From Chryseobacterium lathyri (GTDB lineage: Bacteria; Bacteroidota; Bacteroidia; Flavobacteriales; Weeksellaceae): DNA of 64,000 nt. The stretch lies in NCBI RefSeq assembly GCF_030812195.1, contig NZ_JAUSSF010000002.1, positions 868,001 to 932,000 on the forward strand, written 5' to 3'. The position numbers and the translations under genes were made by a program. The notes under the pieces were generated by a model. It saw only the letters and a program-made list of their open reading frames with translations, did no database searches and was not told the DNA's origin. Positions 2,927-54,868 of the stretch are shown here, in pieces (the stretch's first letter is position 1; each line of letters starts with the position of its first letter).

Positions 2927-3001
2927 TTAACTATCAAATAACAAATCATTTGCGGATGCCGAAAAGCAGATAGAGTAGGCAACAAATTAAAACAAAATAC
3001 C

Positions 3002-6500: not shown

Positions 6501-6502
6501 TG

Positions 6503-6576
6503 CTCCTCCTGCTGGGCTCGAACCAGCGACCCTCTGATTAACAGTCAGATGCTCTAACCAACTGAGCTAAGGAGGA
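6503..6576 (-). tRNA. tRNA-Asn (GTT), copy 1
   Basis: The minus strand folds as a complete 74-nt cloverleaf. The acceptor TCCTCCT pairs with AGGAGGA, the D-arm is GCTCAGTTGGTTAGAGC, the anticodon stem TCTGA/TCAGA carries loop CTGTTAA with anticodon GTT, and the T-arm GCTGG/CCAGC carries loop TTCGAGC. The discriminator base is G and CCA is not encoded. A TATATTTG -7 element reads towards it at 6600-6607. An identical copy is at 7516-7589. Confidence 0.97.
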
Positions 6577-7514: not shown

Positions 7515-7515
7515 G

Positions 7516-7589
7516 CTCCTCCTGCTGGGCTCGAACCAGCGACCCTCTGATTAACAGTCAGATGCTCTAACCAACTGAGCTAAGGAGGA
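7516..7589 (-). tRNA. tRNA-Asn (GTT), copy 2
   Basis: Identical in sequence and structure to 6503-6576: a 74-nt cloverleaf with anticodon GTT and no encoded CCA. It lies about 80 nt upstream of the ATPase gene start on the same strand, separated from it by its own terminator. Confidence 0.97.
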
Positions 7590-50905: not shown

Positions 50906-50935
50906 TTGTCAATTAAAAATATTAGTCTACTTTTG
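50906..50935 (+). promoter_or_regulatory. Promoter of the SAM-riboswitch operon
   Basis: TTG (50906-50908), 19-nt spacer, TACTTTTG (50928-50935), one of the best Bacteroidota promoter matches in the window. The transcript would begin right at the 5' side of the riboswitch. Confidence 0.75.
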
Positions 50936-50942
50936 CAGTAGA

Positions 50943-51081
50943 TTATCAAGAAAGGTGGAGGGATTTGGCCCTATGAAACCTTAGCAACCTGCACGACTCT
51001 AAAAAGTGTAAAGGTGCTAATTCCAACCCATTGAGGGGAAGATGAGAAAGTCAATATTCTGACAGCAATTCCATTTCTTGA
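50943..51081 (+). ncRNA. SAM-I (S-box) riboswitch
   Basis: The aptamer core is unmistakable: TATCAAGAAAGGTGGAGGGA, GGCCCTATGAAACC, TTAGCAACC and AAGGTGCTAATTCCA, in the right order and spacing. P1 can form from TTATC (50943-50947) with GATGA (51041-51045). A later segment, TTTCTTGA (51074-51081), is the exact complement of TCAAGAAA (50946-50953) and would compete with P1 and P2, a plausible switch. No intrinsic terminator follows before the ATG at 51145, so control may act on translation or by a less obvious structure. S-box RNAs turn genes off when S-adenosylmethionine is plentiful. Confidence 0.93.
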
Positions 51082-51144
51082 AGTCTTTTATATCTGCGGA
51101 TGAGGTCCGTGGAACTAGTGTATCATTAATTTACGAAGACAAAG

Positions 51145-53565
51145 ATGAAAAAATTAAGCCTGTCTGTTATACTCCTGGGGGCTGTTTTGGTGAACGCACA
51201 GGAGCAGGAAAAGGGAAATCAGATTGAAGATATAATTATCGTAGGAAACCGGAATACCAAAAGGACAAAGCTGGAAACACCGGTTCCTGTAGACGTTATC
51301 AATATAGAAAAGCTGCAGAAATCTGCGCCACAGACGACGGTTCAGGATTTGCTGAATTATGTGATTCCGTCATTTAATTCTGTAAGACAGTCAGCGTCCG
51401 ATGGGACAGAACATATTGATCCCGTAACCCTGAGGGGGATGGGGCCGGATCAGGTATTGGTACTCGTCAATGGAAAAAGAAGACATACCACTTCATTGGT
51501 CAATTATCAGAATACCGTTGGAAATGGATCTGTAGGAACAGATCTCAGTACGATCCCGGTGATTGCTATTGACAGAATTGAGGTTCTGAGAGACGGAGCA
51601 GCCGCACAGTATGGTTCTGATGCCATTGCAGGAGTTGTCAATATTATCCTTAAAAAAGATATCGGGGCATCAGCATCGGCATCCTATGGAATTACAGGAA
51701 GAAATGATGGTGAAACCTATCAGGCCGGAATCAACTATGGATCTTCTCTTGGGAAAAAAGACAGTTATGTGAATCTTTCACTGCAATTGAGCCACAGAGG
51801 GAAGACTACAAGAACTCAAAATCATGATTTGGATATTTTCGGAGACAATTTTGCCTATGAATTTGCGAATGATCCTATCGCGGCCAGGGCTTTAGACGAT
51901 CAGATTATTAAAGAAAGAGGTCTCACCCGGGATGACTTTAATTTTCAGATCGGAGATGCCCAGATCAGGCAGGCCCAATTGTTTTTTAATTCTGAATATC
52001 CTTTAAGTGAACGCTTTAAGCTGTATTCTTTTGGCGGTTTCAGCATTAAAGAAGGAAAAGGTTTCGGTTTCAGAAGACTACCGGGTGAAACATCCAATGT
52101 GGTTTCTTCTGTCTATCCAAATGGATTTCAGGCCTCTTTGAACTCGCAGGTTTACGACTTTTCTTATGCTGTAGGAGTAAAATATAATGTCAATAACTGG
52201 TGGCTTGATGTAAGCAATACATTCGGAAGTAACACCTTCAATTATAATGTAAACAATACCAATAATGCATCTTTAGGGGCGAAATCTCCAACGAGCTTTT
52301 ATGCAGGGGCGCACGGTTTCCTTCAGAATACGGTGAATCTTGATATTTCTAAAAAATTGAATCAGCTTAATGTAGCATTTGGAGGAGAATTCCGCTTTGA
52401 ACAGTACGAGATCAAACCGGGAGATGAAGCTTCTTACACCCGGTATGATATCAACGGAAATCCTGCTGTTCCCGGATCTACAGTGGAAGGAAATGGCGGG
52501 TCACAATCATTTATCGGTTTTTCTCCGGACAATGCTTTAAAGAAATCCAGACATTCAGCAGCGGTGTATGCCGATGTTTCTTATGATATTGCTGAAAAAT
52601 TAAATATAGATCTGGCAGGAAGATTCGAAAATTATTCAGATTTTGGAAATACGCTGAATGGAAAACTGGCCGTGAGATATGAATTTGTAAAAGATTATGC
52701 AGTGCGGGCATCTGTGGGAACCGGTTTCAGGGCTCCATCCCTTCAGCAGCAGTATTTTAATAATTCCTATGCCGATATCTCCACTTCAGGACTAGGAATT
52801 GTTACCAAAGGGATTTTCAGGAATGACAGTGACGCAGCCAGAGCGCTCGGATTTGATCAGTTAAAGCAGGAAACCTCAGTCAATGCCAGTGCCGGTCTTA
52901 CTCTGAAGCCAGCCAACAGACTGTTTATAACCGTTGACGGCTATTGGATCAAAGTAAAAGACAGAATTGTAATCACCAGCAATATCGAAGATCCAAGACT
53001 GGCTCAATACAACGTAGAAAGCGGAAGGTTTTTTGCTAATGCAGTAGACACGGAAACAAAAGGAGTAGATATTGTTGTCTCTTATGATTGGAAACTGGGT
53101 GGCGGAAATTTAAATATCAGCCTGGCAGGAAATTATACAGAAACCAAGATCACAGATTTCCATTTTCCTGAAAATTTAGTGCCTCCTCAGGATGAATTCT
53201 TCGGGCCGGACCAGATTAATATCATCGAGACCCTTTCTCCTAAGGCAAAAGCTTCATTAGGACTGAACTATGCCATCGGAAAATTCAATTTCATGGTTAG
53301 AAATACGTATTTTGGTCAGGTCATAAGAGATGGTTACCCATTTGGAAAGGTTCAGAAATTCTCTCCTAAAGTGGTTACAGATATAAGTGTAGGCTATGAT
53401 ATAACGAAAAATATTAATCTGACCATAGGAGCCAATAACGCCTTTGATGTGTTTCCGGACCTTCAGATCTATGAAAATTCATATTATGGAGTATTTAAAT
53501 ATGCGCCGGTTCAGATGGGAACACTGGGGAATTACTTCTTCGGAAGGCTTAATTTTAATTTTTAA
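51145..53565 (+). CDS. TonB-dependent outer-membrane receptor under SAM riboswitch control
   Basis: The 806-residue protein has a signal peptide (MKKLSLSVILLGAVLVNAQE) and a plug domain (about 45-175: LETPVPVDVI, TVQDLLNYVIPSFNS, VTLRGMGPDQVLVLVNGKRR, IDRIEVLRDGAAAQYGSDAI). A 22-strand-type barrel follows and ends GNYFFGRLNFNF with a terminal phenylalanine. There is no carboxypeptidase-like amino-terminal extension and no SusD partner, so it is not a SusC-type glycan importer. Placement 200 nt behind a SAM-I riboswitch, and 7 nt before a permease gene, points to uptake of methionine, a methionine precursor or another sulfur compound. Ligand assignment is inference. Confidence 0.9.
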   Translation: MKKLSLSVILLGAVLVNAQEQEKGNQIEDIIIVGNRNTKRTKLETPVPVDVINIEKLQKSAPQTTVQDLLNYVIPSFNSVRQSASDGTEHIDPVTLRGMGPDQVLVLVNGKRRHTTSLVNYQNTVGNGSVGTDLSTIPVIAIDRIEVLRDGAAAQYGSDAIAGVVNIILKKDIGASASASYGITGRNDGETYQAGINYGSSLGKKDSYVNLSLQLSHRGKTTRTQNHDLDIFGDNFAYEFANDPIAARALDDQIIKERGLTRDDFNFQIGDAQIRQAQLFFNSEYPLSERFKLYSFGGFSIKEGKGFGFRRLPGETSNVVSSVYPNGFQASLNSQVYDFSYAVGVKYNVNNWWLDVSNTFGSNTFNYNVNNTNNASLGAKSPTSFYAGAHGFLQNTVNLDISKKLNQLNVAFGGEFRFEQYEIKPGDEASYTRYDINGNPAVPGSTVEGNGGSQSFIGFSPDNALKKSRHSAAVYADVSYDIAEKLNIDLAGRFENYSDFGNTLNGKLAVRYEFVKDYAVRASVGTGFRAPSLQQQYFNNSYADISTSGLGIVTKGIFRNDSDAARALGFDQLKQETSVNASAGLTLKPANRLFITVDGYWIKVKDRIVITSNIEDPRLAQYNVESGRFFANAVDTETKGVDIVVSYDWKLGGGNLNISLAGNYTETKITDFHFPENLVPPQDEFFGPDQINIIETLSPKAKASLGLNYAIGKFNFMVRNTYFGQVIRDGYPFGKVQKFSPKVVTDISVGYDITKNINLTIGANNAFDVFPDLQIYENSYYGVFKYAPVQMGTLGNYFFGRLNFNF

Positions 53566-53572
53566 CTGTTAA

Positions 53573-54868
53573 ATGAATACTGCTACACACCAGATCGGCT
53601 GGAAAACGGCTGCCGCTATTGTTGTCTCCAATATGATCGGGACAGGAATATTTACTACTTTAGGCTTCCAGCTGTCTGATATTACCAATACCTACAGCAT
53701 TTTCCTGTTGTGGATTATCGGCGGGATTCTCGCCCTGTTCGGAGCATTTTGCTATGCCGAGCTGGGATCATATTTTAAAGGAAACGGAGGAGATTATATT
53801 TATCTTAAAGAAACCTATCATCCGGTATTTGGCTATCTGGTAAGCTGGATCTCTCTGATCATCGGGTTTTCTGCACCTGTGGCTTTGGCAGCACTGGCAA
53901 TGTCCAAATACCTTTCAGCTTTTAATTACACCTTTGGAAACGGCTTTGCCATAGGTTTCATTTTTCTGGTGGCAGCGAGCTTATCGTTCAGCCTTAAAAC
54001 ATCAAGCAGGTTTCATAATTTTTTTACCTTTATCAAAATCGCTTTTATTATTGTTCTGGTGATTCTGGGTGTTATGCTTTCAGGATCCGATGCAGGAAAC
54101 AGCCTGAAATTTACTGACAGCTGGCAGCATGAGATCATGCTCCCGGCTTTTGCAACATCTCTTGTTTTTGTTACCTATTCCTATACCGGTTGGAATTCAG
54201 CTTCTTACATTGCAGGAGAAATAAAAGATGTTCAGAAAAACCTTCCCAGAGCTTTAATTGTTGGAACTGTTTTCGTGACAGTGAGTTATTTGCTCGTCAA
54301 CTTTATCATGCTGAAACATGCACCTGTAAGCCAATTGGCCGGAAAAGAAGATGTGATGGGAGAAGCAGCAGGGAATATGCTGGGAATCGGTTTTGGAAAA
54401 ATCGTCAATGTTTTTATTGCTTTACAGCTGATTGCTACGATCAGCGGTTATTTATGGGTGGGTTCAAGGCTTACACAGGCTTTTGCAAAGGAAAACCATT
54501 TGTGGAGATCACTTGCTGTCAACAACAAAAAAGGAATTCCGGTAAGGGCTATCTTTGTACACGCTGTGATTGCTTCAGTGATCATTTTGACGGGAAGTTT
54601 TAAAGAGATCTTTGTGTATACCGCTTTTATCCTTCAGCTGTTTGCCAGTCTTTCCATTTCTACGGTTTTCTTTCTCAAAAAAGATCAGAGGAAAATATTT
54701 AAATCCAATATATTTTACATTTTCCCGGCAGTCTTTCTGCTCTTCAGTATTTATATTCTCTATTTTACACTCGTTCATAATCCCAAAGAAAGTATTATAG
54801 GACTTGGAATTGTAGCCTTTGGACTGGTTTTATATGTAATTGACAGGAAATTTTTTAAAAAACAGTAG
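53573..54868 (+). CDS. APC-family amino acid permease
   Basis: This 431-residue protein has about twelve membrane segments. The first carries VVSNMIGTGIFTTLGF, the glycine-rich unwound helix that binds the amino-acid backbone in the APC superfamily. It starts 7 nt after the receptor gene, so both are on the same SAM-riboswitch-controlled transcript. It would carry the substrate released by the receptor across the inner membrane, most simply methionine or S-methylmethionine. The sequence does not decide which substrate. Confidence 0.9.
   Translation: MNTATHQIGWKTAAAIVVSNMIGTGIFTTLGFQLSDITNTYSIFLLWIIGGILALFGAFCYAELGSYFKGNGGDYIYLKETYHPVFGYLVSWISLIIGFSAPVALAALAMSKYLSAFNYTFGNGFAIGFIFLVAASLSFSLKTSSRFHNFFTFIKIAFIIVLVILGVMLSGSDAGNSLKFTDSWQHEIMLPAFATSLVFVTYSYTGWNSASYIAGEIKDVQKNLPRALIVGTVFVTVSYLLVNFIMLKHAPVSQLAGKEDVMGEAAGNMLGIGFGKIVNVFIALQLIATISGYLWVGSRLTQAFAKENHLWRSLAVNNKKGIPVRAIFVHAVIASVIILTGSFKEIFVYTAFILQLFASLSISTVFFLKKDQRKIFKSNIFYIFPAVFLLFSIYILYFTLVHNPKESIIGLGIVAFGLVLYVIDRKFFKKQ

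Follow-up and report, generated by a model that had tools for sequence, protein, structure and literature searches.

We identify in this Chryseobacterium genome a gene pair that is very probably an uptake operon repressed by S-adenosylmethionine (SAM), with a small methionine-containing molecule as its likely cargo. The locus occupies positions 50906-54868 of the window, by which we mean the whole stretch of 64,000 nucleotides that was analyzed (C2:868001-932000), in a genome of 4.5 Mb. Its parts are listed in Table 1. In the arrangement we propose, a TonB-dependent receptor (TBDR) would move the compound across the outer membrane using TonB energy, and a permease of the APC superfamily would then carry the compound, or methionine cut from it, across the inner membrane.

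Table 1. Features of the locus, in window coordinates
Feature	Position	Strand	Details
Promoter	50906..50935	+	TTG (-33) at 50906-50908, 19 nt, TACTTTTG (-7) at 50928-50935; Bacteroidota consensus TTG-n19-TAnnTTTG
SAM-I (S-box) riboswitch aptamer	50940..51048	+	RF00162, 76.4 bits, E 3.5e-16, model 1-108 complete
P1 helix, 5' strand UUAUC	50943..50947	+	Pairs with 51041-51045; cmscan alignment
P1 helix, 3' strand GAUGA	51041..51045	+	cmscan alignment
Anti-P1 segment UUUCUUGAAGUCU	51074..51086	+	Complementary to aptamer 5' strand 50940-50953
Hairpin between anti-P1 and start codon	51093..51113	+	Folds; no U-run after the hairpin
GAAGAC upstream of start codon	51135..51140	+	Can pair with freed anti-P1 in folding, in a putative OFF state
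TonB-dependent receptor, 806 aa	51145..53565	+	PF07715 (Plug) and PF00593 (beta-barrel)
APC-superfamily amino-acid permease, 431 aa	53573..54868	+	PF13520, 189.6 bits

A preliminary description of this DNA had proposed a promoter and a SAM-I aptamer ahead of a receptor gene and, 7 nt later, a permease gene, and it had called for a covariance-model check with RF00162. All of this was borne out. The search with Rfam returned one SAM-I aptamer in the whole window, with a score (76.4 bits) above the RF00162 gathering score of 44.4, and this score over the entire model places the element in the SAM-I family, with SAM as its predicted ligand. The -7 box TAnnTTTG lies 4-5 nt ahead of the aptamer in 23/23 related leaders and the upstream TTG is kept in 22/23; from the promoter position, transcription would start at about the first aptamer base. 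The two open reading frames, 7 nt apart, were confirmed along with their domains.

The receptor is assigned to the TBDRs both by its domains and by an AlphaFold2 model (pLDDT 85), each of which gives a plug followed by a beta-barrel. The solved folds closest to the model are siderophore and B12 receptors, which at ~15% identity and a TM of about 0.65 are too far away to name a ligand, and our structure and fold searches gave none, as the matches centered on the plug or on generic TBDR folds. Members of this receptor group are currently annotated as “TonB-dependent receptor” alone. With 20 of 46 bits, the receptor falls below the cut-off of the SusC signature and, by this measure, is not a SusC. 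It is likewise below the cut-offs for BtuB (98 of 600, TIGR01779, and 74 of 836 bits, NF007926) and for FepA-type siderophore receptors (113 of 493 bits, NF010048). There is no SusD gene beside it; in 23/23 receptor-bearing genomes of the genus, the gene that follows is the APC permease.

The permease greatly exceeds the PF13520 cut-off of 27, and the GTG loop of its TM1 is invariant in the seven members compared. Its nearest solved relatives are SLC7 light chains (b0,+AT, LAT2, and xCT) and a BasC-type permease, and on this comparison it is of the L-amino-acid type. It is nonetheless below the cut-off of TIGR00911 (185 of 702), and also below those for YjeH-type L-methionine/branched-chain transporters (PRK11021, NF008245; 73 of 284 bits) and for the S-methylmethionine permease MmuP (PRK11387, NF008484; 46.9 of 716 bits). 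We regard it as a putative amino-acid carrier of a bacterial subfamily.

These parts are conserved together. Among 36 sampled genomes of the genus, 23 (including the window's own) carry a receptor orthologue, at 77-95% identity to the window receptor, and in 23/23 of these the receptor gene is flanked by an S-box directly upstream and by the permease gene directly downstream. The preliminary description had suggested a survey of S-box RNAs for this gene pair. The 13 genomes without the receptor have one or two S-boxes, and none has three. Because the genome has only three S-boxes in 4.5 Mb and the trio is linked wherever the receptor occurs, chance can be excluded. The three elements also stand together at two further Chryseobacterium loci (L295/L297) and in another genus, in Apibacter adventoris (L308), where the S-box scores 87.1 bits. 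The operon is thus a conserved system with the predicted makeup for uptake across two membranes.

More distant relatives suggest how the system was assembled. In our tree, Flavobacterium receptors form a group with the window receptor, which receptors of families f38 and f50 join less securely (89/90). The f38 and f50 receptors adjoin an APC permease and lack an S-box, and no other protein of those genomes matches the window permease nearly as well as this neighbor (304-312 bits vs. at most 143 for the next). An APC permease also adjoins the receptor at locus L280. The occurrence of the pair without an S-box in families as distant as f38 and f50 indicates that it predates the riboswitch. No S-box was found beside more distant receptor homologues in 20 loci (flanks of about 1.5 kb), and a Hymenobacter-like APC homologue (G421) had neither receptor nor S-box adjoining it. 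The more distant receptors instead adjoin genes for gamma-glutamyltransferase, M19 dipeptidase, peptidase C26, and beta-eliminating lyases, a trend from a modest sample without a formal background count. These neighbors suit a broader family of amino-acid or small-peptide receptors, and since they act on other amino acids and on peptides, membership of that family does not by itself point to methionine. A Pcm-like methyltransferase with a signal-like N-terminus was seen next to two f50 receptors, but as the genomes are near-identical it was set aside.

The link to methionine comes from the regulon. The three S-boxes of the genome precede a metX-hom-metB/C-metH operon (L004), the window operon, and a SusC-SusD pair (L005), and every S-box examined in the genus fell into one of these three classes. 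Sulfate-assimilation genes of the cysH and cysD types lie elsewhere in the genome, away from the S-boxes, which argues that the regulon is aimed at methionine rather than at sulfur generally. The 21 SusCD S-box sites examined in the genus are as uniform as the receptor-permease sites. The preliminary description had set the locus apart from SusCD importers for want of a SusD; the absence at this locus holds, but the contrast is incomplete given the S-box-controlled SusCD pair in the same genome.

Control of this kind extends beyond the genus. Across Bacteroidota, the majority of S-boxes examined precede methionine genes. SusCD pairs also follow S-boxes in family f23, where an M14 carboxypeptidase comes next, and in f17, where some are preceded by genes for redoxin or cysteine desulfurase; in long alignments, the SusC proteins of f1, f23, and f17 share no more than 33% identity. 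A different TBDR paralogue lies behind its own S-box in another genus of the same family as the window (G379; L225/L376), and in the tree this paralogue is far from the window receptor, beside a receptor of the window's genus (L064). Unrelated SusCD pairs and a different TBDR paralogue behind S-boxes indicate that outer-membrane importers have been captured by SAM control several times. Our literature search for S-boxes with TonB in Bacteroidota found nothing relevant, and TonB is not mentioned in a paper on RNA regulons (PMC3766115).

The leader suggests how SAM could act. A UUCUUGA-type segment downstream of the aptamer (51074-51081 and on) is kept in 23/23 leaders, and the columns of the anti-P1 are 97% conserved vs. 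71% for the rest of the leader. Against the aptamer 5' strand, 94% of anti-P1 cells are paired across the 23 leaders, compared with 41-65% for slid partners. We take this as support rather than proof, because the aptamer side has other reasons to be conserved and the leaders share ancestry. In forced folds, which contain no ligand energy term and cover 23 leaders that are related and not independent, the anti-P1 was more stable than P1 without ligand in 23/23, and in 22/23 forcing P1 closed left the start region harder to access.

We searched the leader of the window operon for a terminator-like site and found none. With no such site and no U-run after the hairpin, an intrinsic-terminator platform was rejected for this leader; the leaders of the SusCD pairs may differ in this respect. 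A conserved anti-P1 in a leader without a terminator fits translational repression by SAM, and the readout of the switch is probably translation, with the SAM-bound leader inferred to be OFF. At low SAM, the 3' anti-P1 segment would pair with the aptamer 5' strand, leaving the start region open so that receptor and permease are made. At high SAM, P1 would close and free the anti-P1, which would mask the start region and stop synthesis. Some genomes (e.g., G016, G013, and G024) do not keep the sequence near the start codon with which the freed anti-P1 would pair, which makes the OFF-state readout uncertain.

Taken together, these results refine the earlier proposal of methionine-type uptake across both membranes. 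SAM-I control, a conserved receptor-permease system, and a methionine-type cargo are all supported, the S-boxes of the genus serving a methionine operon and one more importer besides this one, and there are several candidates for the exact compound. Those named in the preliminary description, methionine in its free form, S-methylmethionine, or a small peptide containing methionine, together with methionine sulfoxide, make up the most plausible reading, at a little under an even chance. This reading agrees with an L-amino-acid permease bearing the TM1 GTG loop, with an S-box regulon of methionine genes, and with the amino-acid and peptide genes that adjoin related receptors. However, the permease lies far below the S-methylmethionine and L-methionine cut-offs, and a peptide would need a periplasmic peptidase, none of which is linked. 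Nor does this reading alone explain an exported SAM hydrolase found beside related receptors.

That hydrolase makes SAM itself a serious candidate, one that we consider quite possible though on balance less probable, and in which the riboswitch would sense the imported compound directly. The Flavobacterium receptors nearest the window clade lack both permease and S-box, and in seven Flavobacterium loci (L175, L176, L282, L286, L335, L370, and L378) a gene for a SAM hydroxide adenosyltransferase is divergent to a window-clade receptor. Enzymes of this family convert SAM to methionine and adenosine. The three loci scanned encode both PF01887 and PF20257, and the receptor-linked enzyme has an N-terminal signal sequence, as read by eye. 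A periplasmic hydrolase depends on SAM reaching that compartment, and the receptor could be its source. In Flavobacterium, the exported enzyme would then cleave SAM to methionine and adenosine in place of the permease step; in Chryseobacterium and Apibacter, the APC permease would take in SAM (or methionine). An APC-type SAM permease has a precedent in yeast Sam3. Moreover, about fifteen positions set the whole receptor clade apart from its relatives; members linked to S-box, permease, or hydrolase have them in common, as would be expected if all bind the same ligand. A near-identical exported hydrolase occurs in 5/396 Flavobacteriales genomes, with the receptor next door in four of those five, while the ordinary form, about 30% identical to the exported one, is nearly universal. 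Against SAM as cargo, the hydrolase link is seen in only a single genus, whose loci have neither permease nor S-box, one genome (G299) has the hydrolase without the receptor, and SAM outside cells is labile and scarce.

It is improbable that the receptor serves a different need tied to methionine synthesis, for example by supplying MetH with vitamin B12 or the cell with a general source of organosulfur. There is a precedent in gammaproteobacteria, where btuB is under MetJ control (PMC3228920), and CysN, CysH, and SfnG-like genes are also found behind S-boxes in f23. Yet the genome has four cobalamin riboswitches at other loci, of which two adjoin plug-type receptors and one a MetE-like gene (identities read from sequence), the receptor's score for the B12 receptor family is low (98 of 600), the partner gene encodes an amino-acid permease, and the S-boxes of this genome are not near its cys genes. 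A siderophore or haem receptor under unusual control is very unlikely: siderophore and B12 receptors do give the best matches to solved structures in sequence and in fold, but the sequence matches fall mainly in the superfamily-wide plug region, the FepA score is low (113 of 493), and regulation, permease, and neighbors all indicate amino acids. Scores below all of those NCBIfam cut-offs, an amino-acid permease as partner, and separate cobalamin riboswitches together argue against either siderophore or B12.

The preferred reading, a SAM-repressed importer of a methionine-type compound, has its closest parallel in Bacteroides thiamine uptake, where a TPP riboswitch, the TBDR OMthi (BT2390), and the inner-membrane permease PnuT often form one operon (PMC5613172). 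By its features, the window operon is a riboswitch-TBDR-permease module of the same layout in the same phylum, conserved in 23/23 receptor-bearing genus genomes and in Apibacter. It differs from the thiamine system in riboswitch ligand, permease family, and cargo, and the two do not share descent as a unit. Cobalamin riboswitch-BtuB importers are similar in having a riboswitch-controlled TBDR under end-product feedback, but in this genome the receptors with B12 riboswitches lie elsewhere and the window receptor is not BtuB. Like the S-box and MetJ methionine regulons (MetNIQ, MetT, and MmuP), the system would link methionine synthesis and uptake to repression at high SAM; those known regulons use inner-membrane carriers, and in the literature consulted btuB under MetJ is the only outer-membrane member. 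Among SusCD/RagAB importers of peptides and glycans, a SusCD pair has come under an S-box in the same genome and independently in f23 and f17; the window receptor has no SusD.

Pairing of a riboswitch with a TonB receptor is known for B12 and thiamine uptake, and the window operon adds a third metabolite, SAM/methionine. With several unrelated outer-membrane importers behind S-boxes, such control is recurrent in Bacteroidota and not a single oddity, and this receptor group gains a candidate cargo that is testable. If the cargo is of the methionine type, some bacteria would devote TonB energy to an amino acid or SAM, a new cargo for this class of importers. If it is SAM, the receptor would be an outer-membrane SAM importer, which would suggest that extracellular SAM serves as a shared nutrient.

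The genome of the window holds a second importer under S-box (SAM-I riboswitch) control, a SusC-SusD pair at L005, and the layout, with the aptamer upstream of SusC and SusD, was identical at all 21 sites examined in the window's genus. In the L005 leader, a CCCUUUGC/GCAAAGGG stem precedes a U-rich stretch, and the two may constitute a terminator.

Relatives of the window's TonB-dependent receptor occupied several other settings. The paralogue with its own S-box, at L376 in a sister genus, had no adjoining permease at that locus. A 46% paralogue in the window's genus (L059, L060, L061, L185) adjoins beta-eliminating-lyase, aminotransferase or decarboxylase-type genes and may be an amino-acid importer. 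Related receptors at L191, L193, L303, L311, L316 and L350 adjoin gamma-glutamyltransferase genes, and uptake of glutathione or gamma-glutamyl compounds is possible there. At L181 and L182 of family f50, the receptor gene is divergent from a Pcm-like methyltransferase with a signal-like N-terminus. Within the window itself, the two tRNA-Asn genes had equal Rfam scores and were spaced ~1 kb apart.

Locations of the receptor paralogue, the second importer and other RNA elements
Feature	Location	Strand	Remarks
Receptor paralogue with own S-box	L376 7282-10266	-	S-box 70.3 bits; sister genus
SusC-SusD pair with upstream SAM-I aptamer	L005 2551-7177; genome C2:269176 downwards	-	
Cobalamin riboswitch beside MetE-like gene	L382; genome C1:413457-413642	-	
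tRNA-Asn (GTT)	window 6502-6576	-	Rfam
tRNA-Asn (GTT)	window 7515-7589	-	Rfam
DUF805b RNA motif (RF02914)	window 2949-2981	+	38.9 bits, barely over threshold

SusCD genes also occurred together with S-boxes in family f17 (L217, L220, L254, L257), with a redoxin or cysteine desulfurase gene upstream at two of these loci; other f17 S-boxes lie upstream of AhpC-type peroxiredoxin, MetE and MetF. At L203 and L213 in family f23, the S-box is followed by SusC, SusD and an M14 zinc carboxypeptidase, an order that suggests a peptide importer controlled by SAM. Other S-boxes in f23 (L201, L205, L207, L208, L211) lie near genes for SfnG-like dimethylsulfone monooxygenase, CysN and CysH, so the whole of sulfur assimilation seems to be governed by SAM in this family.
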